From Rubritalea profundi (GTDB taxonomy: Bacteria > Verrucomicrobiota > Verrucomicrobiia > Verrucomicrobiales > Akkermansiaceae), in assembly GCF_002954445.1 (NCBI RefSeq), contig NZ_MQWA01000001.1:1-55888 (forward strand): DNA of 55,888 nt. The letters are read 5' to 3'. This document shows, one piece after another, positions 19,229 to 41,938 of the stretch. Made by a program: the position numbers and the translations under genes. The notes beneath the pieces were generated by a model. The model saw only the letters and a program-made list of their open reading frames with translations. It had not been told where the DNA came from and searched no databases. The first letter of the stretch is position 1. Every line of letters starts with the position of its first letter.

Positions 19229-20314
19229 TTACTCGTCTTCCTTGCCCTTGATCAGCACCTTAGTCTTACCAGACTTATCGACCATGGAGAATTGACCACC
19301 AGTAATCTCCGCGAGAGACCCCATGGCATCACGTGCTGACGGGGACATCATTGCGATTGCATTAATTACAATATCTTTTTTCTTCGCTTTTTTTGCTATC
19401 TCCTCCGCAATTTGAGCAGATTTCCCACCGCAACTGCCGTCAGTCATAAAGAAAATTATGTCTGGCTGAGGCTCCATAGCGAGTGCCATTTCCAAAGGTG
19501 CCTGCCAAGCCGTTCCATAAACGAGTTTTGTCTCTTCAATAATTTTAAGTGATTCCTTTAAATTCTTGTTAGTAGCCTTCAACCAGAGTGGGGTAGGTAG
19601 TTTTTCATTTTCTGTACGCCAATCAGTAGCACCCTTTCCGATCCACTCATACTTTTCTCCGTCATACTCCACCACTGCAGCACCTCTGCCATTCATTTGC
19701 AGATCACAGCCAGCAACCCATGCTGGGCCCGCAGAAAAAACGAGTTGGTACTCAATGGAGTCAGGTAGAGATGCAACAGAACGAGCTAGTTCAACCTTAA
19801 GTAATTCGAAACGTTTCCCTCTCATTGAGGCTGAATAATCGATCACGAAACAAATACGCTCAGCTTTGACTTTTTGATTAAAAAAGGAAGCTCCTCCGCC
19901 GCCTCCGCCGCTGCCCCATCCATCGCCATCAGTCCAGCCGTCACCGAAGTCATCGCCATTACCAAAATCTACTGATGGTTCGGTTACTTCGGTGTCAGTT
20001 ACAGGTACCGCTGTTGGTGAAGCTGTATTCGAGGCAATCACCTTCGCCATTGATGAAGATGGTGCCGAGGGCTTACGCTCGACCTGATTTGTCGTCTCAG
20101 GCTTCTCTATTTCCTCTGTTTCATCGACTCCAGCATTATAAGAAATAATCTCAGGCGGCCTTTTCACTTCCACAGTCAAGGCAATGACAAAAAGGATCAA
20201 ACCAATCAAAAACATTGAAAGTACTGAAATAATCAATGCCGAAACGGTAGATGTTCTCTTCGGTGCAGCAAGATTTGCGGCAGCCTCGGGGGTCGTTTTG
20301 GCGTGAAGGCTCAT
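19229..20314 (-). CDS. Membrane-anchored VWA-domain protein (shared-anchor family)
   Basis: 361 aa. A cytoplasmic N-terminus (MSLHAKTTPEAAANLAAPKR) leads to one membrane helix (about 24-47). Next is a Pro/Ser-rich stretch with ERKPSAPSSSMAKVIAS, an acidic Gly-rich linker (FGNGDDFGDGW and a run of glycines, 116-141), and a von Willebrand A domain (about 150-361) with an intact MIDAS start DYSAS at 159-163 and FMTDGS later. The first 130 residues match the three toroid proteins at 36956-41938 closely, yet the head domain is unrelated. VWA heads bind ligands through a metal ion, so it is probably an envelope adhesion or scaffold protein. Function unknown. Confidence 0.85.
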   Translation of the reverse strand: MSLHAKTTPEAAANLAAPKRTSTVSALIISVLSMFLIGLILFVIALTVEVKRPPEIISYNAGVDETEEIEKPETTNQVERKPSAPSSSMAKVIASNTASPTAVPVTDTEVTEPSVDFGNGDDFGDGWTDGDGWGSGGGGGGASFFNQKVKAERICFVIDYSASMRGKRFELLKVELARSVASLPDSIEYQLVFSAGPAWVAGCDLQMNGRGAAVVEYDGEKYEWIGKGATDWRTENEKLPTPLWLKATNKNLKESLKIIEETKLVYGTAWQAPLEMALAMEPQPDIIFFMTDGSCGGKSAQIAEEIAKKAKKKDIVINAIAMMSPSARDAMGSLAEITGGQFSMVDKSGKTKVLIKGKEDE

Positions 20315-20692
20315 ATGTTTGTACGTATTTTTTTTAACGAGGCTCAGTCTTTCACATTCAGTAAATGCTTCAAACTGAGCGATTATTACACCTATTCACC
20401 AAAAAATTTTATTACTTAAAGATCCTGATTTCAAAGATGAAACGATCGAAGCTCTAGTTTCTCCAGGCCGATTGGCAAGACGGTTACTAAGTAATACGTT
20501 AGCGGACTAGAACTCATTTTGCTAAACAGTGGGCCTCATTTTTCAATAGTACCCCCTTTCTCCCCCCTCTCCCCAACAACGTCCTCAGGGACACCCTGAA
20601 TAAGCAAATTCCTAGAAATCAAGAATCGACTTGCGCTAAAATGCTGATTACAAAGTGGTTACAGATATATATAAAGCTCGTTTATTGGCACC
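20315..20692. other. Intergenic region, no gene seen
   Basis: 378 bp between the VWA gene and the transposase remnant. No ORF, RNA gene or copy of the repeat families is recognisable. Contains a short hairpin (CAGGG, ACA, CCCTG, near 20586-20598) without a T tract. Confidence 0.4.
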
Positions 20693-20992
20693 GTGGGTAG
20701 GGCAGAAGATCGTTCTGCACATTATTACGTTGTATCACGCATCGTTGATCAGGATTTCCTGCTAGATAGTAAAGGCAAGGAACAATTTGTCCGCTTCATG
20801 CGGATGTATGAGGCCATCTGCGGGGTTCGTGTGCTGACCTATTGCATCATGAGCAACCATTTCCACATTCTCGGAGAAGTGCCACCAAAGTGTGATCAGC
20901 AGCTCGATAACGCGGCTGTAATTGAGCGTTTATCGATGATTTATTCGAAGGAACACGTGGCGATGGTGAGCGAGCAACAACAAAATATATAG
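20693..20992 (+). pseudogene. Truncated REP-associated tyrosine transposase (Y1/HUH)
   Basis: About 99 codons remain. The family blocks are AEDRSAHYYVVSRIVDQDFLLD, KEQFVRFMRMYEAICGVRVLTYCIMSNHFHILGEVP (the HUH metal site is in MSNHFHIL) and IERLSMIYSKEHV. Full-length enzymes run 200-330 aa; here the catalytic-Tyr region and everything after it are missing. The N-terminus is also broken: the expected lead-in (KARLLAPWVG) is readable just upstream in another frame, and only a GTG is available as a start. It is a dead remnant of a single-strand transposase that in other genomes acts on palindromic repeats. Confidence 0.8.
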
Positions 20993-21421
20993 TCACACAA
21001 TATCTGAGGGAGAACACTACATCCCCTTTGTCTATGAAGGTAACTCTAAAAAATGTTTGAGTCTATGGTGGGCTGTCGTGGGGCGTCCAATTGCAGATTG
21101 AGACCCACGATACTTTCTTCCTATTTGGTGTTGGAGGAGTAGATTAAAAAAATGGCATGTGTTCTGCCTCTAGTCTGGCGAAGTGATGGAGCACATAATG
21201 CTCCTAGCACGAATACTCCTTCAGCATCGTTTAACGAGGGGGACGTAGCTCTCACGTGAATCACTGCAACAGCCATCTATGAAATTTGAGTAATCTGTGG
21301 TTAAAACCAAGCGTCCAACTCTAAAGCGCCATTGGCTCAAGCCTCTGAAAAACTAAAGCCCTGAAACCTAGAGACTTTCCCTTGGTTCAATTTGATCTTA
21401 CTTTTTGCCGTCGATATCTGT
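20993..21421. other. Intergenic region behind the transposase remnant
   Basis: About 430 bp with no continuation of the transposase in any frame and no other gene. A degenerate copy of the ATTCGTG-type 9-mer motif may sit near 21282-21306 (AATCTGTGGTTAAAA). Otherwise nothing is recognised. Confidence 0.4.
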
Positions 21422-21769
21422 TCAGCTCAAGGGCTTTTTCACTCCATCCTCCCCCACATTGACGTAGCTGATGTCGGTGGAGAAAATTGCACCTCGCTCG
21501 GGCTCCTTGCCGGAATAAATATCGATTCGGTAGCTGGCTGATGTGGTCCCCTTCATCTGCAAACTTGCACAAATGCGGATAATTGCGCCATTCTTCACCG
21601 ATTGGAGAAACTCGACCTTTCCCATTCCAATCGTTACAAAGCGGGCCTCGGGGAAATCCTGACTAGCAGCAATGTAGCCAGCCTCGTCAGCCCAGCTCAG
21701 CAAGCGGCCACCAAAAAGAAAGCCATATTGGTTGAGATCTTCAGTCAGTACGAGTCGATGTGTTTCCAT
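21422..21769 (-). CDS. Acyl-CoA thioesterase, hotdog fold
   Basis: 115 aa from the ATG at 21769 (METHRLVLTEDLNQYGFLFGG). An open frame continues upstream inside the jag gene but is only its shadow. Family motifs: NQYGFLFGGRLLSWADEAGYIAA (catalytic Asp in the W-x-D-E block), VTIGMGKVEFLQSVKNGAII and the beta strands TSASYRIDIYSG. This is the YciA/acyl-CoA hydrolase branch, which cleaves acyl-CoA to free acid and CoA. The start is 4 bp past the jag stop, so the two are one transcript. Confidence 0.85.
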   Translation of the reverse strand: METHRLVLTEDLNQYGFLFGGRLLSWADEAGYIAASQDFPEARFVTIGMGKVEFLQSVKNGAIIRICASLQMKGTTSASYRIDIYSGKEPERGAIFSTDISYVNVGEDGVKKPLS

Positions 21770-21773
21770 GGTA

Positions 21774-22223
21774 TTAAGCTGGTGTGATTTCAATCCTCTT
21801 GTAGCGATCATGGCCGCTGGGGGAGGCGGTGTTGACTCCAGTCGTGTCAGCCAGTGCATTGTGGACGATTCTACGGTAGTAGGCATTGAGTGGGCGGGTG
21901 CGGGTAGACTTACCAGTCTCGACCACCTTTTGTGCTAGCTCGCGCGAGCTCTCCACCAAATTGCCTTCTTGCTCGTGGCGGTAATTATCACAGTCGACCT
22001 TGACCCTTGGCGCATCTGGAAAATGTTTATTGAGAATCCGATTCACCAGGTATTGCAAGTCCTCCAGTCGATCACCATTGCGACCAATGATGGTCTTGGT
22101 ATCGTCAACTTTGATCTGCAGACAGAGGCCGTCGTCAGTCGTTATCCTTTCCACCTCAATGGAAAAGCCTAGGTGACCGAGCATCGTTACCAAAATTTTC
22201 TCTGAAGCATCATCCCATTTCAT
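21774..22223 (-). CDS. khpB: KH/R3H RNA-binding protein (Jag/KhpB-like)
   Basis: 149 aa. A middle KH domain (DDTKTIIGRNGDRLEDLQYLVNRIL) and a C-terminal R3H domain (PLNAYYRRIVHNALADTTGV, SGHDRYKRIEI). The Jag N-terminal domain found in Firmicutes is missing; only a short lead (MKWDDASEKILVTMLGHLGFSIEV) precedes KH. Family members bind RNA and act in cell division and elongation. In many genomes the gene follows yidC; here it does not, and it is paired with a thioesterase. A family A repeat lies directly upstream in the promoter region shared with coaC. Confidence 0.87.
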   Translation of the reverse strand: MKWDDASEKILVTMLGHLGFSIEVERITTDDGLCLQIKVDDTKTIIGRNGDRLEDLQYLVNRILNKHFPDAPRVKVDCDNYRHEQEGNLVESSRELAQKVVETGKSTRTRPLNAYYRRIVHNALADTTGVNTASPSGHDRYKRIEITPA

Positions 22224-22275
22224 AGAGACAACCTAAAAACTAACAACACATCCGTCAAACTAGCATTCCAACTAA

Positions 22276-22476
22276 TACCACTCTGAGTTTCGAAAGAACC
22301 TAATGCTGGAGTGATTTCTTGAGAAATCGAGGCGCAACGAAGAAGCGGTTCGAGCACCGTGACTGAGGAGAAACGCTGATTTATCAAGAAAGTGCCCTGT
22401 AACCGCTTCTTCAGCGAAGCGCCATTTCTGAAATCAAAAAAATGACATTGGGTTCTTTTGAAACTCCGAGTTGTAT
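22276..22476 (+). repeat. Inverted-repeat element, family A, copy 2 (MITE-like)
   Basis: 201 bp. The first 31 bases (ATACCACTCTGAGTTTCG...) and the last 31 are imperfect inverted repeats with about five mismatches. Pairing continues inward (GAAGAAGCGGTT against AACCGCTTCTTC), so most of the element could fold as one long hairpin. It aligns with the reverse complement of 6578-6780 throughout. It occupies the divergent region between khpB and coaC. Confidence 0.82.
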
Positions 22477-22489
22477 AATCCGTAAGTAT

Positions 22490-22524
22490 TTCACTTCACA
22501 CTCGCCACTTCGCACTCCACACTT
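22490..22524. repeat. Degenerate heptanucleotide repeat before coaC
   Basis: Five consecutive 7-base units of the form NNCACTY (TTCACTT, CACACTC, GCCACTT, CGCACTC, CACACTT) end 5 bp before the coaC start. The same heptamer grammar occurs before recC. Confidence 0.65.
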
Positions 22525-22529
22525 TGCCT

Positions 22530-23066
22530 ATGGCCACTATCGTCCTCGGCATCACAGGTTCCATTGCCGCCTATAAAACAGCAGACATCGCCTCGGCTCT
22601 CGTCAAAGACGGCCACGAGGTGCACTGTGTGATGACCCAATCAGCCACCGAGTTCATCCCTCCATTCACCCTGCAGATCCTGTCGCGCAACCCAGTGCTG
22701 GTAAGCCTGCAGGATGAAAAACAGTCGTGGAAACCTGGTCACATTGACCTCGCGGATAGTGCTGAGCTGATGGTTATCGTCCCAGCCAGCGCTAATTCCA
22801 TAGGCAACTTCGCCAACGGCCTTGCTCCCGATCCCCTCTCTAGCATCTACCTCGCCACCAAGGCCAAGGTGCTCATTTGCCCTGCGATGAATGGCAAAAT
22901 GTGGGACCACGTCGCCACCCAGCGCAATGTAGAACAACTCAAAGCCGATGGCGTCGAATTCTTCGGCCCCGATGAAAATGGCATGCTCGCCTGCGGTTAC
23001 GAAGGCAAAGGCCGGCTAATGCCAGTCGACTCGATCCTCGAAGAAATCCGCACCCACCTCCCCTAA
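22530..23066 (+). CDS. coaC: Phosphopantothenoylcysteine decarboxylase
   Basis: 178 aa from the ATG at 22530; a TTG two codons earlier is less likely. Flavoprotein of the HFCD family: N-terminal FMN loop GITGSIAAYKTADIASAL, active-site His in GHIDLAD, VPASANSIGNFANGLAPDPL, the substrate-binding PAMNGKMW, and the CGYEGKGR block with the catalytic Cys. It decarboxylates 4'-phospho-N-pantothenoylcysteine to 4'-phosphopantetheine in CoA synthesis. Most bacteria fuse it to CoaB; here the ligase is the next gene, 26 bp downstream, in the same frame order but separate. The leader is a heptamer repeat and has no Shine-Dalgarno. Confidence 0.92.
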   Translation: MATIVLGITGSIAAYKTADIASALVKDGHEVHCVMTQSATEFIPPFTLQILSRNPVLVSLQDEKQSWKPGHIDLADSAELMVIVPASANSIGNFANGLAPDPLSSIYLATKAKVLICPAMNGKMWDHVATQRNVEQLKADGVEFFGPDENGMLACGYEGKGRLMPVDSILEEIRTHLP

Positions 23067-23092
23067 CTTCTCTCTACTCTCTCCTTCCCATT

Positions 23093-23725
23093 GTGGCAAA
23101 ACACTTTCTCATCACCGCTGGCCCGACGCACGAGCCACTTGATCCCGTCCGTTATCTGACCAACCGTTCCTCCGGAAAAATGGGTTACGCCCTCGCCGGA
23201 GCTGCAGCCCACGAAGGCCACCGGGTCACTCTGATTTCAGGTCCCTGCGACCTCGAGGTCCCCGAAGGAGTCGACTACCTGCCAGTGGAAACTGCGGCAG
23301 AAATGTACGAGGCCGTTTCTCGCTACATCGGCAAAGCGCAAATTGCCATCTTCGCCGCCGCCGTTGCTGACTACCGCCCAGTCAATGTGCCAGAACAAAA
23401 GATCAAGAAAACGGGCAACACGCTCACACTCGAGCTGGTCAAAAATCCGGATATTCTAGGATCAGCTAGAGAAGTCTTCGGCTATAAAGGAACATTGATA
23501 GGTTTCGCCGCAGAGACAGAAAATGTCGAAGACAATGCTCGCGGAAAACTCCAGCGTAAAGGATGTGACTTTGTTGTCGCAAACGACGTCTCACGCCAAG
23601 ACATCGGCTTCAATGCCAGCGAGAATGAGGTCAGCCTAGTCTATGCAAACCACACCGAAGCTCTGCCGAAAGATGACAAGTACCAGCTTTCGCTAGAGAT
23701 TATAAAGAAGTCTCTGGAAGTATAG
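23093..23725 (+). CDS. coaB: Phosphopantothenate-cysteine ligase
   Basis: 210 aa, GTG start. DFP/CoaB domain: LITAGPTHEPLDPVRYLTNRSSGKMG at the N-terminus, AAVADYRPVN in the middle, the KIKK substrate loop (QKIKKTGNTLTLELVKNPDIL), and VANDVSRQDIGFNASENEV near the end. It joins 4'-phosphopantothenate to cysteine using a nucleotide triphosphate. It pairs with coaC just upstream as a split version of the usual CoaBC; a pyrimidine-rich 26-bp spacer separates them. Confidence 0.92.
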   Translation: MAKHFLITAGPTHEPLDPVRYLTNRSSGKMGYALAGAAAHEGHRVTLISGPCDLEVPEGVDYLPVETAAEMYEAVSRYIGKAQIAIFAAAVADYRPVNVPEQKIKKTGNTLTLELVKNPDILGSAREVFGYKGTLIGFAAETENVEDNARGKLQRKGCDFVVANDVSRQDIGFNASENEVSLVYANHTEALPKDDKYQLSLEIIKKSLEV

Positions 23726-23910
23726 CTGCTAGCTTCGGGCTTGTTGGACTGTCTCCGACTACACTCAAGACCTGTCCACTCGAAATATTCTAAAACAAGT
23801 TATCCTCCAACAAATTGAATCTGAAGTCATAGAATAACGCGACTTTCAGATCATCGCTATCTTAACGAACATCCTCCCACCCAAAAAAAGAATGTCGTTT
23901 CCCGGTGCCT

Positions 23911-23952
23911 CTCACCTCTCACCTCTCACCTCTCACTTCTCACTTCTCACTT
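23911..23952. repeat. Tandem heptanucleotide repeat abutting recC start
   Basis: Six perfect tandem 7-base units (CTCACCT three times, CTCACTT three times) and one degenerate unit (CTCGTCC) run straight into the recC ATG at 23960. They replace any Shine-Dalgarno site. Unit-number change by slippage would alter the leader but not the coding frame. Confidence 0.85.
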
Positions 23953-23959
23953 CTCGTCC

Positions 23960-26900
23960 ATGCCAAACGCTCAATTCAACCTCCATCATTTCCCGAAACA
24001 AGAAGACCTTGCCGAGTTACTGCTAGAAAACCTTGCTAAAGAAGGAGCTGGTTCGCCTTTTCACAAGTCGACTGTACTCGTGCGGAACCAGGGGATGGCG
24101 ACGTGGTTGCGGCAGCGTATTGCCAAGCAGACTGGGCTGGCGATGTTGGTCGACTTCCCACAGCCCAATAGTTTTCTTCAGGGATTGATTGATGAAAAAT
24201 CGGTCCAGCTCGACGAGCTTAAATGGCCGATCTACGAGCTACTGCCGAGATTGATCGACAGACCTGAGTTTGAAATCCTCAAGACCTACCTTTCCAGCTC
24301 GGTCACTGAGATCGAGGCATCGCTCAAGCGCTACCAACTCTCTAGCCAGATCGCGGCGCTCTACGACAAGTACCTGCTCTACCGACCTGAGTGGATCACC
24401 GCCTGGAATGCAGGCGAGAGTATTTCAGCCTTTAGTTCCCACGAAGCATGGCAACGCATTCTCTGGCAGGAGTTGACTAAAAACGAGATCCAACATTGGT
24501 CGCAAAAGTTGCTGGCGACAGAGCAGTTAGAAATCGATTCCGAACTTCCCAGCGCACTCCACGTTTTCGGAATTTCAAACTTCGCACCGATCTATGTGCG
24601 CTTCCTTTACCTTCTCAGCCAACAGATACCGGTACACATTTACTGGATGAACCCGGTCTCTATCGATGAAGGTTACTGGGAAGATGCGCCGACCAAGCGC
24701 CAATGGACAATGGCTGAGGCCTTTGATGAATCCTCAATTCTCATAGAAGGTAATCCGCTGTTAGCGAGTTTCGGCAGGATGGGCCGCGAGTTCGTCCACA
24801 CGCTCTATGGTGGCGAAACTGGAAACACGGAGATTCACAACTTCCAGCCGCAGGATACCACGCACCCAACAGCTACTAACAGCCTCCAACAGCTACAGCA
24901 CAGTATCTTCGATAGACGCCCGATGAGCGATGATACATCTATCGACTCCTCACTGGCCGTTCACTCCTGCCACACTCCCCTCCGCGAGCTGGAAACTCTC
25001 AAGGACTACCTACTCCAGCTCGCTGAAAAATCTCCGCTCGACACCGGAGACGTGATTGTGCTCTGCCCAGACATTGCAAGCTATGCTCCCTCTATCGAGG
25101 CTGTGTTTGGAGCTCTACAGCGCCAGAAAGAATTCTATCTCCCCTACCGCATCAGCGATAGGTCTGCCCCCGTCAACGAACCTGCCATAGCTGCAGTTGC
25201 ACAACTCTTCGATCTAAACAAAAAGCGTTTCACCAATCGCGAAGCTCTCGACCTACTCTCCGTGCCGGCCATCGCCGAGCACCTCAATCTAAATGAACAA
25301 GACCTCGGTACGATTCGCCAATGGGTCACCCAATCTGGTATCCGATGGGGCTTCGACTTCAAACACATCCGTGAGATCGCTCCCGACTGCAAGGACTCCA
25401 CCTGGACATGGCGTGACGGACTAGACAGGCTACTACTCGGCTACGCCATGCCGTGTAAAGAACTCACGCTTTGGCGAAACATTCTCCCCTACCACGACAT
25501 CGAAGGCAGCTCCACGCGTCTTCTTGGTGCGCTCTGTTCTTTTGTCGAGTGGTGTGCTGCCATTCGCAACCAGCTCAGAGACAAACGAAGTCTGGAAGAT
25601 TGGGTGGCGGCTACAAAGGAATGGATAGATCTCGGGTTTTCAAAATCTCCAGACGCCCAGCAATCTATCCAGCCTTTGCTACAAGTGTTAGAGAAGCTTC
25701 ACGATCAGTCTTCACTGATAGAAGAAACAATTCCGAGCGATGTCTTTGCCGAGCACCTTAAAGATTACCTCAACGACTCATCTCCAGCCTTCGGGTTCCT
25801 CAATGGATCGATAACTTTCTGTGAGACTAAACCAATGCGCGCCATCCCCGCACGGGTGATTTGCCTACTTGGGATGAACCACGATGCGTTCCCACGCAGC
25901 ACGTCCGATGTGCAGTTCGACCTGACCAAGGATTCACGACAAGCGGGTGACCGTTCCACTCGCGATGACGATTGCTATTTTTTCCTCGAGGCCATTCTCT
26001 CTGCCCGTGAAAACCTCTACTTCAGCTATGTGGGAACCTCGATCAAAGACGGAGAGCCACGTCCACCATCGACTGCTCTGCAAACTCTCATCGATACGAC
26101 CCCCGGTCTAGCCAAAGCAGTTGTCAGAGAAAAACTCCACGCCTACGACCCAGCTTATTTCCTAGAAGTGCCCAGTAGCCATGACGCACACCTTATGCAA
26201 GCCGCGGTGACTCTAGGCTCAACCAAAGAATCAAAAGAACCTCGGGCTGAAGTGTCCGTAACTCTCGACGAAAACCCAACACACATCGATCTGGATGACT
26301 TCATTTCTGGCCTGACCAGATCGACATCACATTTTCTAAGAAAGAGCCTCCAAGCGCGGCGCCATTACTATGACGCACCATTGGAAGAAGATGAATCACT
26401 CGAAATCAACGGCCTTGTCGGCTGGGGTCTAAAAAACCAATTACTCAAAAGTCGCCATTTCGATCCAGCTCATGAATCAGCGTGGCGCCAGCAGGGACTC
26501 ATCCCCTCAGGTGAATTTGGCCACCTCCAGTTAGTCAAGCAACTGGGATCTATCGAATCTCTGATCGAGGACTTGCCTGAGCTGGAAATCACTCCCATCG
26601 ATATCAAAGTCAACGGTATCCAAATCACCGGCAATGTTCCGACACACCCTGATGGACGCGTCCTAATCCTCTCTCCCTCAAAAGCACCAAAAGGCCGAGA
26701 CCTGTTGCAGCTCTGGATCTATCAAATCCTAAGGACCCACGCTTCTGAACAAGCCACAGGAGCTGATCATCAACATCGATAAACAGCTCGTTGAAACAAA
26801 CCTCAGCGCTCCTGAATTCACTCAGAACACCCTAAAGTTCCTTCTCCAAATTTACCTAGATAACCTCAAATCCCCCCAAGCTAGTTTCCCCAAAACCAGC

Positions 26901-27143: not shown

Positions 27144-27149
27144 CGTGTC

Positions 27150-30100: not shown

Positions 30101-30695
30101 TACTGAAATTACTGAAATTATTCAAGAAATTGTCCTCAATATTGAGCAACTGCTAAAGCATGAGATTGCTCCCGGTATACAGCTTAATCAACTCAGCCAA
30201 AAACAACGGCTCAACGAAGCTCAGTTCCTTCTATCTGGTTCTAACTTCTCACTTTCAGCACTGTGCGACATTTTGGCAAGTGATCCACCAGAGGGTCTCC
30301 CAGTTGGCTACATCGAGCAACTTCGTGATGTCTCAGCGCTTGCCGTAGAAGGTTTTCTCGATGGTATTATTGACCTCGTATTTGAACATAATGGCCGCTA
30401 CCACATCCTCGATTGGAAATCTAACAAGCTAGCTAGTTCACTCCCAGAAATGATGGCTGACCACCATTATTTCCTCCAGTACCACCTCTACACGTTGGCG
30501 CTCGACCAACTACTGCAGCAGAGACTCGGCGCTCGTTACGACCCAGCTATCCACCTCGGTAGCAGCATCTACGTCTTTCTTCGAGGGGTCGATACTGGCT
30601 CCCCGCACAGCGGAATTTACTCAGACACGCTGAGCCCCGCCCGCCTGATTGCTCTGCGCAATGCCTTCATTAAGCAACCATCTCACCTCTCCTAA
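27150..30695 (+). CDS. recB: Exodeoxyribonuclease V subunit beta RecB
   Basis: 1181 aa, full length compared with E. coli RecB (1180). UvrD/Rep-type helicase: Walker A LLEAGAGTGKTYSLV near residue 18, VTFTRAATAEIKSRL, Walker B LIDEFQDTSPQQ, IGDPKQSIYRFRGAD, TSKGLEYPIVFVLP, SYVALTRAKHRCY. The C-terminal nuclease domain keeps GLVFHEILEELDF, and the catalytic VEGFLDGIIDLVFEHNGRYHILDWKSN (Asp...Asp-x-Lys). Start ATG 6 bp after the recC stop; its own stop is 1 bp before the recD ATG. This is the only intact subunit of the three, which suggests the frameshifts beside it are recent or artefacts. Confidence 0.95.
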   Translation: MITQFNPVSSPIEHGLTLLEAGAGTGKTYSLVRIIVRELVEKELDPSEIVTVTFTRAATAEIKSRLHDLLSEVLRELKLPADEMNNDIAKAWINKGEEWVENAKRRLSIALSAFDSIPIFTIDGFFQRLLKEYAFESNVLFSIELEPDDSPLIHTALQDYWRQHVYNLKGDALALFQQSVDFNKAKKFLSEALRSSEVTLDHAYSESADALNADYAKAWHSFVAVLQQHEDTLRDFIDNPTAGIKKTAGPFRKGGDVKIFVEIDAILSNPSAVLSSTPLIDHLRSSHLLTEAAFNKNKFIDLSGEAIADLFLAIQSLIDARPKNISSAYYGEIYRFVEQRLNELKADLNTQSYNDVTTTLSNILVSNSKASQAIKLAIYKRYKAALIDEFQDTSPQQCNVFIQLFNQEKREAEDERYFHIIGDPKQSIYRFRGADVFSYIAAASRADHHYSLLTNYRSSPSMIHAVNKVFSISENSFLVEGGISFTPSQWPEQTGNVPDPAQPALWFQSIEMEKSTADQKRQLFYNDICRNILELLDTAWSEIDPNSERTEPVQPSDFAVLVRSKKQGESLNILLSEHKVPATLSTRTSLIASAESSEILTILSALLNPRSTPAIRSALLTPALGSGVLLASDAAFDQVSNDFSELHILWNEHGLMPMMQSFIARFSVRSRFLQLTHGQRRLTNFNHLAELLDTKAREDKMTPSATLQWLEMAIQGSTYDTDAEQLELRIATDDAAVQILTQHTSKGLEYPIVFVLPSCDSKISSTRLSHTYHHPNTGETLFAPYGDNSHESFEIRKAEEQADSVRLSYVALTRAKHRCYFYYDPPAKKTAYDHAVYRMLGEIDQPEIEALCGDSDNTIVYTPLDEETLDLQLEKWTAQTSKDVQELSIRDSSQIHFVTQKRTTSFTGITRNAPDIFHDVDGTVLDSIGRVEKGFWSKLQAGASLGLVFHEILEELDFQDTSELLSLVDSKLHKYSPWRERPSGTEITEIIQEIVLNIEQLLKHEIAPGIQLNQLSQKQRLNEAQFLLSGSNFSLSALCDILASDPPEGLPVGYIEQLRDVSALAVEGFLDGIIDLVFEHNGRYHILDWKSNKLASSLPEMMADHHYFLQYHLYTLALDQLLQQRLGARYDPAIHLGSSIYVFLRGVDTGSPHSGIYSDTLSPARLIALRNAFIKQPSHLS

Positions 30696-30696
30696 C

Positions 30697-32351
30697 ATGC
30701 TCGCCAAACATTTCTCCGACTTCATCAGTAAACGCCACCAACCCGCGTCCCGAGACTTTGCCACTTTGGTCGAGCGTCTCAGTGAAGCTGTCGAGGCGGG
30801 ATCATCCTGTCTCGACCTACGTTCCCACAAAAAGCATTCACTCGGGGACTGGAAAACGATACTCGCCTCCGATGCTGAAAACAGCACGGTCTCTAGTCCT
30901 GGCGGAAATTCTCCGCTCATTCTAACGACTGAAGGAAGACTCTACCTCCAGCGCTATTTCCTTCACGAAAAAGGAATTTACGAGAAAGTTCACCAATGGC
31001 TAAGCCAACCTGTAGATAAAGTAAGCTCCCCCACCAAAAAGCTCTATCGGCGCTACTTTCCAACTAGCGAAGGTGACGATCAAGCGCTTGCCGCAATGAC
31101 CGCTCTGCAGCGAAGATTCACCATCATTTCTGGCGGCCCCGGAACGGGTAAGACAACTACCGTCCTCAAAGTTTTACTGCTACTGCGTGAGCAAGGCTAC
31201 TTCAGCGACCCAAGTGATTGCCTCCTTCTTGCCCCCACAGGGAAAGCTGCAGACCGCCTCCGCCAATCGATTCTAGGAGGCATCAGCCAACTAGAAATGC
31301 TACCGATCGACCTCCCCACAGAGGCGGCAACGATTCACCGAGCTCTCGGATACAGGCCCGGCAGCATCGAATTTCGCCATAATGCTAACAATCCGCTTTC
31401 CGCAAAAGTGGTGGTGATCGACGAGTCCTCTATGGTCGACCTACCACTGATGCACCGCCTTCTGGATGCCATTCCCGACGATGCTCGGATTATTTTGTTA
31501 GGAGATAAAAATCAGCTCTCTTCGGTTCAAGTAGGCACCGTCCTTTCCGACTTCATGCTAGCTGCGGAGCAAACTGATAGCTTGCTTTCTAAATCCACAA
31601 TCACCCTCCGGAAGAGCTTCCGCACCCAAGGTCCTATCAATGCGGCTTGTGCTCACATCCGTGATGGCGACGCAGCTCAGCCTGGCAAACTGTACTCGAT
31701 TCACCAAAGGACGTGACTGGCGCGACGGTCTTTCAAAAGCTTCCATCTCGCTTGCGCAATGCGCTCACTCCCTTTGTCGAAACTCATTGGCTTCCAGTCC
31801 TTAAAAATAGTGAACTCAGCGCGGCTGAAAAGCTGACAGGAATCGACAACTTCCGGATTCTAACCCCGACGCATAAAGGGTCATATGGTATCGCCGCCAT
31901 CAACCAGACAGTAGAGCAAATCCTAGCTAGCCACGGTATAGACACCCAACAAGTCTGGTACCCTGGGCGCTCGGTGCTGGTTCAACAAAACGACCACGCT
32001 CTAGGAATTTACAATGGTGACACTGGCCTCACTGGGACAGACGCCGAGGGCAACCCTAGCGTTAGCTTTGCTGGCACTGACGGCACACGCAGCTTCTCAC
32101 CAGCGCGTATTCCCGAGGTGCACACCGCCTGGGCTCTTACTATTCACCGAACTCAAGGCAGTGAGTACGAGCACATTTTGTTGGTCATTCCACCAGTAGA
32201 GGATTCCCCTATTTTAAGTCGCGAACTCCTCTACACCGGACTCAGCCGAGCCAAGAAGTCCGCCACTCTCTGGTGCACCGAGCAAAGCTTCAAGCAAACA
32301 GTCGAGAGCACCGTGCAACGCGCATCGGGACTTAGTGCCATGTTTGAATAG
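30697..32351 (+). pseudogene. recD: Exodeoxyribonuclease V subunit alpha RecD, frameshifted
   Basis: Start ATG at 30697, 1 bp after the recB stop. The N-terminal part to 31716 holds Walker A IISGGPGTGKTTTVLKVL, LAPTGKAADRLRQSI, TIHRALGY, VIDESSMVDLPLM and LLGDKNQLSSVQVG. The frame breaks between about 31690 and 31740 after NAACAHIRDGD, and the C-terminal helicase motifs resume in another frame to 32351 (FRILTPTHKGSYGIAAINQTVEQIL, DHALGIYNGDTGL, TAWALTIHRTQGSEYEH, ELLYTGLSRAKKSATLW). Net shift is -1 (or two separate +1 events, since GRDWRDGLSK is readable in the third frame). Combined length near 550 aa fits RecD. Fast 5'-3' helicase motor of RecBCD. Confidence 0.85.
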
Positions 32352-34778: not shown

Positions 34779-34806
34779 GGAGTGCGCGTGGCTCGACGCC
34801 GCTTGG
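34779..34806 (+). repeat. Dispersed GGAGTGCG-type palindromic motif, copy 2
   Basis: GGAGTGCGCGTGGCTCGACG then CCGCTTGG, similar to the minus-strand motif at 32500-32529. It lies in the gap between two convergent genes. Confidence 0.5.
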
Positions 34807-34829
34807 AGCGAGTGAGGCTTAAATTAAGT

Positions 34830-35555: not shown

Positions 35556-35734
35556 GCTGGAAAAATAACACTTCATATTCTCTAGGACGGCAAGTGAAAT
35601 CGCGCTATTCAAAGAAATTTCCAAAATTTACTAACAACTCATAACTATTTTAAAAAGATCCGTACTCTAGGCTTGAAGAATTTGTATTTTCCACAGCTTA
35701 TAGTCGCAGCGACACCTTACTCGACTAAATTTTT

Positions 35735-36706
35735 ATGAGCCTGAGAAACCAACTCAACACAGTACTTCCTGACATTCTCCCAGCTTCCCCTAAAGAAGCA
35801 ATCAAGGGTACAGAACTCATCCGCCTAGTGAGGATGCGCCTCGACGGAAATTACTCAGACGCCTCATTGCGCTATCATTTCTCTATCATGTCCTGCGACC
35901 CAGGCTCGGCGATTGCTAAGGTTGAGAAAGGCCAAGGCTACTATCGCCGCACAGCCGCAGTCCCAGCCCTAGCAGGGGCGCAGGAACTCCTATCCATGAC
36001 TCAGGGACGACTCGATGATCTTGGATCAAACCAAGAAGCTGTCGATCTAGCAATGCTTCGTGTCAAAAAGTTTAGAGCCATTGTCCACCGTTGGTGTGAG
36101 ATCAATGGCCGTCAGCCTTTTGTTTTCCGCGAACCCTTCAAAGCGACTTCACCGATGGGAAATCTTTGGAAATTTCCTGAGGTCATGTTAGTCGATTGGG
36201 AAGGAGCTGGCGAAGAAGACTCCCCGAATGCAGTTCTACGCCTCAAGCAAACTCTCAGCCTGCCGCCATTCCACCTCTGCGCAGGACGCCTGCGCATCCA
36301 AGCCAACATCCACACTTTCCGTGAGGATTTCTTCCAAGCTCTCAGCGCATCTGTCTGGGCCAATAGTGGGGAACTCTTCTACGCTATTCGTATCGACGAC
36401 GAAGCTCTCAATGAAGCCTTCCGTAAGCTCAATGCTACTTTTGGACTCGGCGTGACATCGTTCGGACTGAGCTTAGAACAACTCGATGACCTCCCCCGCC
36501 CAGCACACATTCTCAATGCGCACCCACGAGAGACTGAAGCCCTGATGGAGCGCCTAGACATCAATCGAGTTGCGGCGGCACACACCCGTCCACACCTCGA
36601 CTGGGCAGCGCTTGATGCCATCCGTAACGACTCAGAAGAAGTCGACAAACTCTTCAACTGGCTCTCCGAGTCACTCGAATCAGGCATCACTAAGTCTTTT
36701 GAATAG
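35735..36706 (+). CDS. HrgA/COG2958-like protein of unknown function
   Basis: 323 aa. The N-terminus (residues 10-80) looks like a winged-helix module (KEAIKGTELIRLVRMRLDGNYSDASLRYHFSIM ... GYYRR). The C-terminal third resembles the region of HrgA/COG2958 proteins thought to be a restriction-endonuclease-like fold: FPEVMLVDWEGAG, LRLKQTLSL, then FREDFFQALSASVWANSGELFYAI and FRKLNATFGLGVTSFGLSLEQL. The resemblance is by pattern only and the typical catalytic Lys is not certain. Single gene with no methylase or other defence gene beside it, so a defence role is only a guess. Confidence 0.55.
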   Translation: MSLRNQLNTVLPDILPASPKEAIKGTELIRLVRMRLDGNYSDASLRYHFSIMSCDPGSAIAKVEKGQGYYRRTAAVPALAGAQELLSMTQGRLDDLGSNQEAVDLAMLRVKKFRAIVHRWCEINGRQPFVFREPFKATSPMGNLWKFPEVMLVDWEGAGEEDSPNAVLRLKQTLSLPPFHLCAGRLRIQANIHTFREDFFQALSASVWANSGELFYAIRIDDEALNEAFRKLNATFGLGVTSFGLSLEQLDDLPRPAHILNAHPRETEALMERLDINRVAAAHTRPHLDWAALDAIRNDSEEVDKLFNWLSESLESGITKSFE

Positions 36707-36955
36707 ATTCGGTGCACGCACATAGGCTCCTATGGTGTGCTCGCCTTTTCCCAGATTGACAGCCTCCCTCTCTATCGGTAATACACAAACAGCAGAATCA
36801 TTCATATTTCCACTTTTCACAGTCAATGACACCTTGGTGAGCAAGCGTTCTTTGAAATAAATACAAATTAGTTATCCTTGTTTCTAAGAAAACTGACACC
36901 ACCGGAGTTACCCAGTTGAGCTAACACTCTCAGCCCTACACAAAGACCCAACTCT

Positions 36956-38401
36956 ATGAGCCTACACGCACAATTAAGCCCTGAAGCGCAAGCTGCTTTA
37001 GCTGCACAAAAAAGAACCTCGACTATTTCTGCACTGATCATTTCGATCTTATCTTTTGGACTAATCATCCTAATTTTGATGGTCATAGCGCTCACAGTAA
37101 ATATCAAGAGCCCACCAGAAATCATTTCTTATTCATCTGGAGTCACCGAAGATGAGGAAATCGACCGCCCTGAGACGACAAATCAGGTCGAGCGCAAACC
37201 CTCCTCACCTTCCTCCTCCATGGCCAAGGTGATTGCAAGTTCCTCTGCCTCCCCAACAGCAGTTCCTGTACCCATCATGGAAACCTCCGAAGTAGCACTC
37301 GACTTCGGCAATGGTGACGACTTTGGCGACGGCTGGGGAGATGGTGATGGCTCAGGCACTGGCGGTGGCGGATTCGGCAACCTCCCAGCTTCAATCAAGA
37401 AGCGCTGCTCCAAGGCTGACCGTCTTGCACGCCTCACCGCCAACGGCGGCAACAAAAAATGTGAGGAGGCCGTGATGAAATCACTCCGCTGGCTCCAGAA
37501 AACTCAGAACAGTGATGGCAGCTGGATGGAGAAAGACAAATGCGCCATGACCGGTTTCGCCCTCCTCGCCTTCCTCGGTCATTGTGAAACACCAATCTCA
37601 GCTGAATTTGGTGAGACAGTAGAAAAAGCGATCGCTTACCTTGTGAATCTTGGTATGGCAAATGACGGTAGACTCGCAACTTCCGCTGCCACCTCACACC
37701 GCTGGGTCTACCAACATGGCATTGCCACCTACGCCTTAGCAGAAGCCTACACCTTCTGCGACAGCCTCGGATTCGAGATCCCCAACCTCGCAGAGGTCAC
37801 TAAGACTGCCGGTGACATGATCATCGCCGGCCAAACTAGCAGCGGCGGCTGGATCTACAGATACGAATCCGGCGGTGGTGGTGACAACTCCGTAGGATTC
37901 TGGCAAATTCAGGCTCTCAAAGCCTGCAAAAATAGTAAACTATGGAAAGACAGCGCCTTTAAATCCGTCTCCAGCAAAGCTCTCGAGTGGCTAACCGTAG
38001 CACAAGGGGCAAATGGTGCGATCGGTTACAGTCGCAGTTCTTCAAAAAGCCCTGGACTTACTGGCGGTGGTGTACTCGCCTTTCAAATGTGGGGCAAATC
38101 GAAATCCGAAGCGGCGCGCAAAGGTATCAAATATATCCGTGCTAACACTGACTTCAAGTGGGGTGGGCCAAGCTCCGACCTCTACTACCACTACTACAAT
38201 GCCCAAGCCATGATCAATGCTGGTGGGGCAGACTGGAAATTTTACAATGATCTGTTCCGCGACGAACTACTCAAAAACCAAAATGAAGATGGCACCTGGA
38301 AAAACAGAAACAAACACAGTGGAAACCTCCACATGAGCACCTGCTTGTCCACCTTCATGCTCGAAGTTTACTACCGCTTCCTTCCTAGCTCGGCCAAATA
38401 A
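36956..38401 (+). CDS. Membrane-anchored prenyltransferase/squalene-oxidase-repeat protein, copy 1
   Basis: 481 aa. N-terminal anchor: MSLHAQLSPEAQAALAAQKR, one membrane helix (about 22-47), KPSSPSSSMAKVIAS stretch, acidic Gly linker (DFGNGDDFGDGWGDGDG). From about residue 147 an alpha/alpha-toroid domain with QW-like repeats: SLRWLQKTQNSDGSW, AMTGFALLAFLGHCETP, GIATYALAEAYTF, GGWIYRYESGGGGDNSVGFWQIQALKAC, LTGGGVLAFQMWG, SDLYYHYYNAQAMINAGG. The DXDD acid motif of real squalene-hopene cyclases is absent, so the fold is probably structural or protein-binding. The anchor is shared with the VWA protein at 19229. Best-preserved of three tandem copies. Confidence 0.85.
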   Translation: MSLHAQLSPEAQAALAAQKRTSTISALIISILSFGLIILILMVIALTVNIKSPPEIISYSSGVTEDEEIDRPETTNQVERKPSSPSSSMAKVIASSSASPTAVPVPIMETSEVALDFGNGDDFGDGWGDGDGSGTGGGGFGNLPASIKKRCSKADRLARLTANGGNKKCEEAVMKSLRWLQKTQNSDGSWMEKDKCAMTGFALLAFLGHCETPISAEFGETVEKAIAYLVNLGMANDGRLATSAATSHRWVYQHGIATYALAEAYTFCDSLGFEIPNLAEVTKTAGDMIIAGQTSSGGWIYRYESGGGGDNSVGFWQIQALKACKNSKLWKDSAFKSVSSKALEWLTVAQGANGAIGYSRSSSKSPGLTGGGVLAFQMWGKSKSEAARKGIKYIRANTDFKWGGPSSDLYYHYYNAQAMINAGGADWKFYNDLFRDELLKNQNEDGTWKNRNKHSGNLHMSTCLSTFMLEVYYRFLPSSAK

Positions 38402-38424
38402 ACTCGAAACTCATTTCAATTTCC

Positions 38425-38455
38425 AAGCCAACTCGTCAACTAGTTGGCTTTTTTT
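38425..38455 (+). terminator. Terminator after toroid copy 1
   Basis: AAGCCAACT and AGTTGGCTT stem followed by a T run, 24 bp past the stop. The same hairpin follows copies 2 and 3, so it was duplicated with the gene. Confidence 0.8.
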
Positions 38456-38669
38456 GGGCTGATGGATCCGACTGCTCGCAAAAAAATTGCTAGAGCGAAA
38501 GAGCCAGCACCTCTATGAGGCCGACATTAGAGCATGTTGCGAAGTCATGTGTACTTCCAGGCACCCAGCCAATGGCATAAATCCCGAAAGTATGTGCTTT
38601 GAAATAAATAGATATTTGTTATGCATACAGCTAAGAAACCCGACTCCACCGGAGTTACCCCATTGAGCT

Positions 38670-38711
38670 AACACTCTCAGCCCAACACTCTCAGCCCAAC
38701 ACTCTCAGCCC
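38670..38711 (+). repeat. 14-bp tandem repeat in leader of toroid copy 2
   Basis: AACACTCTCAGCCC three times in tandem, ending 18 bp before the ATG. The leaders of copies 1 and 3 hold a single version of it (AACACTCTCAGCCC and AACGCTTTCAGCCC), so the expansion is specific to copy 2. Confidence 0.85.
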
Positions 38712-38729
38712 AACACACGACCCGACTCT

Positions 38730-40187
38730 ATGAGCCTACACGCACAATTAAGCCCTGAAGCACAAGCTGCTTTAGCTGCACAAAAAAGAACCTCGACCAT
38801 TTCAGCACTGATTATTTCGATCTTATCCTTTGGTCTCGTCATCCTAATTTTGATGGTGATAGCGCTCACAATAGACATTAAGAGCCCACCAGAAATCATT
38901 TCTTATTCATCAGGAACCTCCGAAGAGGAGGAAATCGAGCGCCCTGAGACGACAAATCAGGTCGAACGCAAGCCCTCCGCTCCTTCCTCCTCCATGGCCA
39001 AGGTGATTGCAACTTCCTCAGCCTCCCCAACAGCAGTTCCTGTACCCATCATGGAAACCTCCGAAGTCGCGCTCGACTTCGGCAATGGTAACGACTTCGG
39101 TGAAGGCTGGGGTGAAGGTGATGGAGAAGGTTTCGGTGGTGGCGGCTTCGGCAACCTTCCATCCTCAATGAAGAAGCGCTGTTCCAAGTCTGAACGTCTT
39201 AAGCTACTGAAAGAAAATGGAGGAAATAAGAAATGCGAAGACGCCGTGGTGGATGCCCTGCTATGGCTACAGGAGAATCAGGAAGAGGATGGCAGCTGGA
39301 GTCACGAGGCGGGCTCAGAAAAGTACCGCGCCGCCATGACCGGATTCGCCGTACTCGCATTCCTCGGGCATTGTGAGTCACCGAATTCCCCGGTATTTGG
39401 TGAAACAGTAGAAAAAGCGATCGTTTATCTTGTGAATCTCGGCATGAAAAACGACGGCAAGCTCACCACCCCCGGCGCGGGCGGCCATTGGGTTTACGAA
39501 CATGCGATCGTAACCTACGCCCTGGCCGAAGCTTTCACCTTCTGCCAGGGACTGGGCGAAGACATTCCCAACCTCGACATAGTCGCCAAAAAAGCAGGTG
39601 ACATAGTAATGGATGGCCAAGGAAATGCCGGAAGCTGGGCATACAACTACGGCAAGGGAGGAGGTGACAACTCGATAGGATACTGGCAGATTCAGGCGGT
39701 CAAAGCCTGCCACCTGACCGAACTGTGGAGTGAAGATAGCAAATTCAAGAAAGTCTACGCAAGTGCAGAAGTGTGGTTCTCTAAGGTCCAGGGTGCAAAC
39801 GGCACCTTTGGTTACCGCGCTAACCCAGCTCAAAACCCCGGACTGACCGGTGGTGGTGTGCTTTGCCTTCAGGTGATGGGCTTGGGTGATTCGAAGTCAG
39901 CCAAAGCCGGCATTAAATACGTCACTGAAAGCCTCGACGGCCATAAGTTTAGCTTGAGTCACCTCTACTTTCATTACTACAACGCTCAAGCTATGATCAA
40001 CCATGGCGGAAGTGAATGGAAAAAATACAACGAGTTTTTCCGGGATGACCTGCTGAGCCTACAAGAAAAAGACGGCTCGTGGCCAACCGGCGGCGGGCAT
40101 GGTGCGATAAACCCGGTCATGACCACCTGCTTGGCCACCTTCATGCTGGAAGTTTACTACCGCTTCCTTCCTAGCTCATCCAAATAA
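38730..40187 (+). CDS. Membrane-anchored prenyltransferase/squalene-oxidase-repeat protein, copy 2
   Basis: 485 aa. The anchor and linker are almost those of copy 1 (KPSAPSSSMAKVIATSSASPTAVPVPIMETSEVALDFGNG), whereas the toroid head is more divergent: LLWLQENQEEDGSW, AMTGFAVLAFLGHCESP, WAYNYGKGGGDNSIGYWQIQAVKACHL, PGLTGGGVLCLQVMG, LYFHYYNAQAMINHGG. All repeats of the toroid are present. The leader before the gene is repeated from copy 1 with the 14-bp tripled block. No catalytic motif. Same topology: short cytoplasmic tail, single helix, periplasmic head. Confidence 0.85.
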   Translation: MSLHAQLSPEAQAALAAQKRTSTISALIISILSFGLVILILMVIALTIDIKSPPEIISYSSGTSEEEEIERPETTNQVERKPSAPSSSMAKVIATSSASPTAVPVPIMETSEVALDFGNGNDFGEGWGEGDGEGFGGGGFGNLPSSMKKRCSKSERLKLLKENGGNKKCEDAVVDALLWLQENQEEDGSWSHEAGSEKYRAAMTGFAVLAFLGHCESPNSPVFGETVEKAIVYLVNLGMKNDGKLTTPGAGGHWVYEHAIVTYALAEAFTFCQGLGEDIPNLDIVAKKAGDIVMDGQGNAGSWAYNYGKGGGDNSIGYWQIQAVKACHLTELWSEDSKFKKVYASAEVWFSKVQGANGTFGYRANPAQNPGLTGGGVLCLQVMGLGDSKSAKAGIKYVTESLDGHKFSLSHLYFHYYNAQAMINHGGSEWKKYNEFFRDDLLSLQEKDGSWPTGGGHGAINPVMTTCLATFMLEVYYRFLPSSSK

Positions 40188-40210
40188 ACTCGGAGCTCAT
40201 TTCATTTTCC

Positions 40211-40240
40211 AAGCCAACTCGTCAACGAGTTGGCTTTTTC
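40211..40240 (+). terminator. Terminator after toroid copy 2
   Basis: Perfect 11-bp stem, AAGCCAACTCG and CGAGTTGGCTT around TCAA, then T-rich sequence. Matches the terminators of copies 1 and 3. Confidence 0.85.
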
Positions 40241-40315
40241 TTTGCCCAGAAGCATCCAACTACTCACAAAAAATTGCTAGTGCGGAAGAGCCTGCACCAC
40301 TATGTGGCCTACATT

Positions 40316-40522
40316 ATACCATTCTCTCAGGTATCTTGTCGGAATGATGGATTTGTAGGTTTTATTTTAGCAGTAGAGCTGAATCGTTGAAAGGCCCTGT
40401 ACCTTTCAAACTCTAGCCGCGTTACGCGTCAGTCAGATAGCTCGCTAGCTTCCTTTCCTAGCTCCTTGCTAGAGTTCAAGACTATCTGAGTCATTTCGAC
40501 AATCTAACCGCTCAAATGGTAT
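40316..40522 (-). repeat. Inverted-repeat element, family B, copy 2 (MITE-like)
   Basis: About 207 bp inside the gap between toroid copies 2 and 3, where it splits sequence that is continuous in the gap between copies 1 and 2. Ends ATACCATT and AATGGTAT are inverted repeats; CGACAATCTAACCGCTCAAA near the right end is a near-exact reverse complement of the left arm of the element at 115-421. The left arm holds the matching TCATTCCGACA/CCTACAAAT block in reverse. Internal hairpins include GAAAGG...CCTTTC and TCAGATAG...CTATCTGA. It postdates the gene duplication. Confidence 0.78.
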
Positions 40523-40708
40523 TATACGATGTAGCGAAAGCATGCGTATTTCCACGCACTCAGCCAATGACTGAGGTCCCGAAAGTTGCGAGGCCCTTCG
40601 AAATAAATACATCTTTGTTATCATTTTCACTAAGAAACCCGATTCCTCCTGAGTTCCCCCTGTGAGTCAACGCTTTCAGCCCCCCCCAAAAAAACCACAA
40701 CCAACTCC

Positions 40709-41938
40709 ATGAGCCTACACGCACAATTGAGCCCTCAAGCACAAGCTGCTTTAGCCGCGCAAAAAAGAACCTCAACCATTTCTGCACTGATCATTTCGGT
40801 CTTAGCATTTGGCCTTGTCATCCTTATCTTGATGGTCATCGCACTCACGGTAAATATCAAGAGTCCACCAGAAATCATTTCTTATCCACCAGTAAACACT
40901 GATGAGCCTAAAAGAGATCTCCCCGAAATACCCAACGAGGTAATGCGCAAACCATCCTCACCATCCTCACCGTCCTCCTCTATGGCGAAAATGCTTGCCA
41001 GCGCCTCCTCTTCTCCTACTGCTGTTCCAGTCCCCGACATTGAGGTCACTGAACCTTCACTCGACTTTGGTAATGATCACGACTTCGATGACGGCTTGAA
41101 TGACGGTGACGGAAACGATAGTGGCGTTTACTTCAAAAATCTACCCACCACCATTAAAAAACGCTGTTCCAAAGCTGACCGTCTCGCACGCCTCGACGCT
41201 AACGGCGGTAGCGAACAATGTGAGGAAGCCGTGATGAAATCACTCCGCTGGCTCCAGAAAACCCAGAACAGTGATGGCAGCTGGACCAAAGGAAACAAAG
41301 GCGCCATGACCGGTTTCGCCGTCCTCGCCTTACTCGGTCATTGTGAAACACCAATCTCAGCTGAATTTGGTGAAACAGTAGAAAATGCGATCGTTTACCT
41401 TGTGAATCTCGGTATGGAGAGTGACGGCAGGCTAGCAACTGCCGCAGTGGGATCACACCACTGGGTCTACGAACATGGCATTGCCACCTACGCCTTAGCA
41501 GAAGCCTACACCTTCTGCGACAGCCTCGGATTCGAGATCCCCAACCTCGCAGAGGTCACTAAGACTGCCGGCGACATGATCATCGCCGGCCAAACTGACA
41601 GCAGCGGCGTACTCGCCTTTCAAATGTGGGGCAAACCGAATGCTAAAGAAGTACGCCAAGGTGTCAAATACATCCGCGCAAACACCGACTTCAAGTGGGA
41701 TGGGCCAAGCTCCGACCTCTACTACCACTACTACAATGCTCAAGCCATGATCAACCGTGGCGGTGAAGACTGGAAATTCTACAACGACCTGTTCCGCGAC
41801 GAACTACTCACAAACCAAAATCAGAACGGCTCTTGGAAAAATAGTAACAAGCACAGCGGAAACCTCCACATGAGCACCTGCTTGGCCACCTTCATGCTCG
41901 AAGTTTACTACCGCTTCCTTCCTAGCTCATCCAAATAA
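40709..41938 (+). CDS. Membrane-anchored toroid protein, copy 3, with internal deletion
   Basis: 409 aa. Anchor as in copies 1 and 2, but the linker differs (PVNTDEPKRDLPEIPNEVM and PVPDIEVTEPSLDFGND) and resembles the VWA protein linker (DTEVTEPSVDFGNG). The head resembles copy 1 almost base for base in places, yet about 74 residues are lost in frame at about 41606 (AGQT-DSS joins directly to GVLAFQMWG), removing one pair of toroid helices including the GGGGDNSVGFWQIQ repeat. The deletion joins short GGCGG-rich direct repeats present in copy 1. The protein may still fold as an open or smaller toroid or may be non-functional. Confidence 0.83.
   Translation: MSLHAQLSPQAQAALAAQKRTSTISALIISVLAFGLVILILMVIALTVNIKSPPEIISYPPVNTDEPKRDLPEIPNEVMRKPSSPSSPSSSMAKMLASASSSPTAVPVPDIEVTEPSLDFGNDHDFDDGLNDGDGNDSGVYFKNLPTTIKKRCSKADRLARLDANGGSEQCEEAVMKSLRWLQKTQNSDGSWTKGNKGAMTGFAVLALLGHCETPISAEFGETVENAIVYLVNLGMESDGRLATAAVGSHHWVYEHGIATYALAEAYTFCDSLGFEIPNLAEVTKTAGDMIIAGQTDSSGVLAFQMWGKPNAKEVRQGVKYIRANTDFKWDGPSSDLYYHYYNAQAMINRGGEDWKFYNDLFRDELLTNQNQNGSWKNSNKHSGNLHMSTCLATFMLEVYYRFLPSSSK

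Follow-up and report, generated by a model that had tools for sequence, protein, structure and literature searches.

The first 55,888 nucleotides of contig NZ_MQWA01000001.1 of Rubritalea profundi (assembly GCF_002954445.1), here called the window, encode four proteins that carry one N-terminal membrane anchor on two kinds of C-terminal head. One is a 361-residue protein with a VWA head, encoded on the minus strand by an open reading frame (ORF) at 19229-20314. The other three end in an alpha/alpha toroid and are encoded in tandem on the plus strand: toroid protein 1 (36956-38401, 481 residues), toroid protein 2 (38730-40187, 485 residues) and toroid protein 3 (40709-41938, 409 residues). About 140 N-terminal residues are common to all four ORFs, with 63-90% identity. 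The N-terminal 139-157 residues of the VWA protein were 63-70% identical to those of the three toroid proteins (E 3e-66 to 1e-47), and pairwise comparison of the VWA head with the toroid heads revealed no similarity comparable to that of the N-termini. We refer to the common part as the MSLHA anchor. Together with its linker it comprises residues 1-141 of the VWA protein (19892..20314, minus strand; sequence alignment) and residues 1-144 of toroid protein 1 (36956..37387, plus strand; alignment and AlphaFold2 model); in toroid proteins 2 and 3 it lies at 38730-39161 and 40709-41146. An alignment of the four proteins with a fifth member from the same genome, which has MSIHA in place of MSLHA, contained 75 invariant columns. 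These include PPEIISY, most of KPS..PSSSMAK and SPTAVPV, and parts of DFGN..DF. The description in the original prediction, four proteins with common anchor and linker motifs that end in a VWA domain or a toroid, was therefore borne out by ORFs, alignment, Pfam and fold. The genome holds five full-anchor genes, among them that of a second VWA protein (anchor at C1:2655621-2656040, minus strand).

Within the anchor of toroid protein 1, PPEIISY (residues 53-59; 37112..37132, plus strand) is invariant in the alignment and is predicted to form a strand immediately beyond the membrane helix. By its position we propose it as a candidate counterpart of the TonB D-box. It is followed by the linker box RKPSSPSSSMAKVIASSSASPTAVPVP (residues 80-106; 37193..37273, plus strand), which by profile comparison is also present in the TonB-like anchors described below. 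An AlphaFold2 model of toroid protein 1, calculated from a 23-row alignment, had a mean predicted local distance difference test (pLDDT) score of 75.7. It contains a helix at residues 9-47 and a helical domain at residues 145-470. Residues 49-143 between helix and head had pLDDT values below 50, which is the layout of a disordered linker.

The head of toroid protein 1 (residues 145-481; 37388..38401 including the stop codon, plus strand) was assigned by Pfam and by fold match. The Pfam C-terminal domain of squalene-hopene cyclase was found above the cut-off in toroid protein 1 (7.7e-7) and below it in toroid proteins 2 and 3 (0.032 and 2.5e-4). The modelled head is an alpha/alpha toroid with the squalene-hopene cyclase 2sqc as its closest match (Z 25.9, root-mean-square deviation 2.9, 286 residues aligned), followed by sugar epimerases and mannanases with Z 22-23. 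DxDD is the catalytic motif of squalene-hopene cyclase. The pattern was present in just 5 of 253 toroid heads, at differing positions, and for the toroid head binding is therefore likelier than cyclase catalysis. A complement-like thioester motif was found in none of the 253 heads. The VWA head (residues 142-361; 19229..19891, minus strand) matched the Pfam families VWA_3 (1.4e-6) and VWA (5.2e-6), both above cut-off. On reading, it contains the metal-site motif DxSxS as DYSAS, and this motif is present in 40 of 41 VWA heads.

Toroid proteins 1 and 2 are 68% identical. Toroid protein 3 has lost about 73 residues in frame from the middle of the toroid and may be a decaying copy. A near-identical terminator-like hairpin (AAGCCAACTCGTCAAC[T/G]AGTTGGCTT) lies 3' of each toroid gene (38425-38450, 40211-40236 and 41968-41983, plus strand), the third being shorter than the other two; the count of hairpin sites in the region is close to the mean of shuffled sequence. 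The arrangement looks as if toroid gene and terminator had been copied as one piece. Gene copying inside the cluster alone would also produce a common N-terminus, and for the tandem triplet it may be the explanation. As an account of all four proteins it is refuted and hardly credible, since the MSLHA anchor profile matched 147 of 195 genomes and 14 of the 16 genera of the Akkermansiaceae, the family of the window, and VWA and PA14-like members with this anchor sit at separate places in other genomes. An anchor confined to this cluster by recent duplication, which the original prediction had named as the outcome that would speak against a modular system, is thus not what we found. The count of 147 is a lower bound: a broader profile, which also catches TonB-like anchors, gave full-length anchors in all four retested g3 genomes that had been missed before. 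When the whole class was searched, 38 of 335 genomes matched, of which 37 belong to the family. The lone match outside (G387) contains internal stops and was taken as spurious.

The anchor and linker are joined to more than two kinds of head. We collected 160 distinct ORFs with anchor or linker from best-matching and picked loci, a non-random set in which some copies are cut at locus edges. These comprised 89 toroid, 29 PA14-like and 26 VWA proteins, two of the latter being YfbK proteins with the linker only (L012, L068), and 16 with none of these heads. The 16 were nine YfbK_C proteins with the linker only, an anti-sigma-like protein (L011), one alpha-2-macroglobulin, four fragments and L146, in which Pfam detects a VWA domain. 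Thirteen distinct proteins were scanned for PA14 with Pfam, ten of them, with MSLHA or other anchors, picked from the 160-ORF set and its follow-up, and three carrying TonB-like anchors and scoring above the cut-off. In total five passed (L082, L083, L282, L230, L342) and five remained below the cut-off (L066, L081, one of L108, L130, L271). Three (the other L108 protein, L111, L129) matched no Pfam family, only a PA14-like profile built here. These matches make the third head PA14-like, an assignment that is firm for some of the proteins. In one VWA protein of the MSLHA-linker type (L085:6904-8478, minus strand), a SAM domain and a stretch of repeats precede the anchor.

The same heads are found on a second type of N-terminus. 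In a sample of the phylum, searched at E <= 1e-15, the toroid head was detected in 145 of 288 genomes, the VWA head in 14 and the PA14-like head in 59. Outside the MSLHA type the N-terminus consists of a helix, mostly with Ser-x3-His, a short strand, the linker box and a Gly-rich spacer, and we call it TonB-like. Helix motifs were counted in 54 distinct anchors of toroid and VWA proteins. Ser-x3-His was present in 39, His with Ser, Ala, Thr or Gly at that distance before it in 42, and Ser-x3-Asn in seven. Asn can stand in for TonB His20 without loss. VWA transducers of the family with code f71 (L264-L266, L272, L273) have Asn at the His position; toroid proteins of f71 (L249-L251) retain His.

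Many of these relatives lie behind motor genes. Among 34 toroid ORFs (32 regions), 23 have ExbD on their own strand upstream; ExbB was visible for 22 of these, and in the last case a contig end cuts the locus. For 18 of the 32 regions the choice was made knowing the ExbD results or from genomes already searched for ExbD; among the other 14 genomes, which were not pre-screened, eight had ExbD upstream, and one of the six misses was cut by a contig end. Several loci have the order large TPR protein, second TPR or unknown protein, ExbB, ExbD, ExbD, toroid. In G019 a toroid and then a PA14-like head follow the motor genes. A PA14-like protein with Ser-x3-His was found after the toroid gene in G019 and G006, and after ExbD-ExbD in G232 and G234, which belong to other families of the class. 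ExbD-ExbD precedes PA14-like heads at L342 and L343. Of the common ExbB/ExbD-like partner that had been suggested, the part that stands concerns the toroid and PA14-like relatives behind ExbB-ExbD-ExbD or ExbD-ExbD; the MSLHA toroid genes have no conserved partner gene next to them.

We compared profiles built from 16 MSLHA and 13 TonB-like anchors. They aligned with a probability of 97.1 and a score of 69.2, as against 38.3 for the best of 60 shuffles (columns permuted within blocks of 30) and 36.8 for the reversed profile. With the helix removed, the score was 42.6, compared to at most 20.8 in the controls. The linker boxes were aligned, MAKVIAS..SPTAVPVP with MKKVVST..AIALND; the alignment program gaps the helix, where the Ser/His register was read by eye. 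By these sequence criteria, the two anchor types are homologous and the MSLHA anchor is a derived TonB-like anchor. A single TonB-like anchor joined to all three heads was found in G326, a genome from the order of the window but from a different family. Its anchors are identical at 94 of 132 positions between toroid and VWA proteins, 95 of 132 between VWA and PA14-like proteins and 83 of 133 between toroid and PA14-like proteins. Two VWA proteins of this genome share 145 of 231 head residues, and merely 67 of 131 anchor residues. In G326, then, anchor similarity is not tied to head similarity, a pattern expected if a docking part is exchanged or homogenised. At L271 of the same genome PA14-like, VWA and PA14-like genes lie in tandem, the last two with a nearly identical TonB-like anchor. 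Taken with the spread over 147 of 195 genomes and the third head, this upholds the proposal that the anchor is a reusable unit.

Genomes with MSLHA anchors also contain a motor elsewhere. An ExbB-ExbD-ExbD cluster was detected in all 12 MSLHA genomes searched. In all eight that were read, the order was ExbB-ExbD-ExbD-TPR-unknown, with no toroid, VWA or PA14-like gene; the TPR protein was assigned by Pfam in the R. profundi genome and by BLAST cluster in the others. Helix 1 of this ExbB has Asn in eight of eight cases and Asp in all 22 other ExbBs aligned; one further ExbB, a second downstream copy in L284, has neither. The ExbDs of this variant motor retain the helix Asp. Three genomes without MSLHA from the same genera (G019, G013, G036) have an Asp-type ExbB together with toroid, PA14-like or VWA genes. 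This co-occurrence, in few genomes of one family, suggests that MSLHA proteins use the variant motor in trans. No sign was seen of ExbD gene pairs being lost together with MSLHA: an adjacent pair was present in 24 of 25 genomes, the exception (G003) being 69% complete. The unknown protein encoded in the variant motor operon (about 313 residues) was considered as a marker of that motor and ruled out, as it occurs in 162 of 195 genomes. It was found without an Asn-type motor in all ten MSLHA-free genomes read (14-15 kb each), three of which have an Asp-type ExbB on the opposite strand. For seven of the ten the absence of MSLHA was rechecked with the broad profile, and for G107, G130 and G143 it was determined by the first anchor profile alone.

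Based on these observations, we consider it reasonably probable that the four window proteins are derived members of a TonB/TolA-like family of inner-membrane transducers with exchangeable periplasmic heads. The N-terminal module would begin with a short tail in the cytoplasm and a single membrane helix. A strand just beyond the membrane, the conserved linker box and a Gly spacer of acidic character would follow, and a toroid, VWA or PA14-like head would complete the protein. In the relatives it most likely docks on the proton-driven ExbB-ExbD-ExbD motor; force or movement would be passed via the linker to the head, which would bind something at the wall or outer membrane. The MSLHA version, His-less and apart from the motor operon, would still dock in trans on the variant ExbB-ExbD-ExbD-TPR motor. 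A bolder form of this reading, which we regard as doubtful, is that Verrucomicrobiota possess a general kit of motor-driven transducers with one docking module and at least three heads, and that the window family was re-wired wholesale, its His-less MSLHA anchors docking in trans on a co-adapted Asn-type ExbB so that one motor drives several heads.

Several findings weigh against the transducer reading. The Ser-x3-His contact that holds TonB on ExbB (PMC12215075) is absent from the membrane helix of all 164 MSLHA anchors, those of the window included, and a survey of 20 loci from 12 genera, in addition to the window, showed no motor gene conserved next to MSLHA toroid genes. Among the relatives, six of the 54 anchors fit none of the helix patterns and lack both His and Asn, and 11 of the 34 toroid ORFs have no ExbD upstream within the stretch read. 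Two genomes with no more than a weak MSLHA match, G004 and G017, possess the Asn-type motor as well. The MSLHA-type ExbBs all stem from a single family, so that their Asn may reflect ancestry and not co-adaptation. In the toroid tree, from which 22 of 97 rows were dropped (10 cut at locus edges, 12 distant), three TonB-like-anchored toroids of the window's family nest within the MSLHA toroids with support 98/96. A single MSLHA clade was nevertheless not rejected in the approximately unbiased (AU) test (p-AU 0.166), nor was a single MSLHA-VWA clade in the VWA tree (p-AU 0.202), and the trees therefore do not show head exchange after the origin of MSLHA. The lost His, the position away from the motor and the His-type proteins kept next to the motor in MSLHA-free related genomes would be expected of passive tethers. 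Such proteins would descend from TonB-like transducers but would no longer be coupled to a motor, and would serve only to keep binding heads at a fixed distance from the inner membrane. We give this alternative substantial weight, short of an even chance. It accounts less well for the post-helix strand, the linker box and the M-x-[L/I/M/R/V]-H start of the cytoplasmic tail (152 of 164 MSLHA anchors), which would be more than a bare tether needs, and for the ExbD Asp retained by the variant motor.

The neighbour survey behind these figures covered 22 loci from 12 genera, including the window and one VWA locus. The toroid cluster itself reached 11 genera. Each of the next two clusters reached only four genera. 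In one, the members are frames read antisense to the toroid gene, which leaves ordinary Gfo/Idh/MocA oxidoreductases (L094, L097, L099, L100, the first three scanned) as the most widespread genuine neighbours.

The linker is also found without the MSLHA part. In the R. profundi genome, two such proteins lie beside sigma-factor genes: an anti-sigma-like protein, so judged by eye (L011:7177-8310), adjoins a sigma-70 region 2/4 gene, and a YfbK protein (L012:7267-9543) lies behind another. Nine more YfbK_C proteins with the linker were found in other genomes. If the linker marked envelope-signalling proteins, the heads could be sensors, perhaps released by proteolysis, and these cases would be explained. 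We hold this regulatory reading to be improbable, because motor-operon transducers bear the same linker box and because no sigma gene was seen beside the window MSLHA genes on reading, without a systematic search. The recurrence of the linker may reflect a common partner or mere re-use of a spacer. In the YfbK_C proteins L067, L069-L075 and L079 the linker box lies near an anti-sigma-like N-terminus, and several of them are 1000-1700 residues long and contain TPR or secretin-type N domains. A 24-residue linker match in L084 (2038 residues) belongs to an alpha-2-macroglobulin and is probably due to chance.

Elsewhere in the window, a RecD-like protein (by reading) is apparently split into overlapping frames of 355 and 212 residues (30649-31716 and 31713-32351, plus strand). 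The two halves of CoaBC, also assigned by reading, are separate neighbouring genes (22524-23066 and 23093-23725, plus strand).

If the transducer reading is true, toroid and PA14-like heads on such anchors would turn the exchange of heads into a general property of such machines and would suggest new functions in glycan binding or at the outer membrane. Because anchors and heads have conflicting histories, the question of which partner the anchor has to bind can be put directly to the test. Compared with known systems, the toroid head resembles squalene-hopene cyclase and other alpha/alpha toroids in fold, but has only about 330 residues, stands on a helix and linker at its N-terminal side and rarely contains DxDD. 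The VWA protein has its VWA domain in common with the YfbK family, which also shares the linker within the window's bacterial family; the vWF_A and YfbK_C domains of YfbK proteins were, however, not found in the window VWA protein by Pfam. To our knowledge, TonB and TolA each have one kind of end domain, and VWA joined these in 2025. The relatives match TonB and TolA in the Ser-x3-His part of the SHLS motif, in the three-part layout and in their ExbB/ExbD neighbours, but neither Pfam nor fold relates their heads to the TonB/TolA C-terminal domain. As the MSLHA anchors lack the His, we class the window proteins as derived relatives and not as TonB/TolA members.

The system had been thought undescribed, a view that no longer holds in full: VWA-headed TonB-like transducers beside TPR, tolQ-like and two tolR-like genes were published for the Planctomycetes-Verrucomicrobia-Chlamydiae (PVC) group (Williams-Jones et al., June 2025, PMC12204202). 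The main text of that paper contains no occurrence of squalene, toroid, prenyltransferase, terpen-, PA14 or Akkermansia, and search results returned no account of a toroid- or PA14-headed kind. In that paper, the helix of a first vWA subfamily carries SHLS and that of a second an Asp; neither Asp nor Glu was met at positions 26-46 of the 164 MSLHA anchors. The window VWA protein differs from these transducers in lacking the His and adjoining motor genes and in an anchor common with toroid proteins. It likewise has one helix, a disordered linker (about 100 residues in the published proteins) and a VWA head. The relatives of the window proteins match further, in Ser-x3-His and in the TPR, tolQ-like and two tolR-like neighbourhood, and their order of TPR, TPR or unknown, ExbB, ExbD, ExbD and toroid is the arrangement reported there for the PVC VWA transducers.

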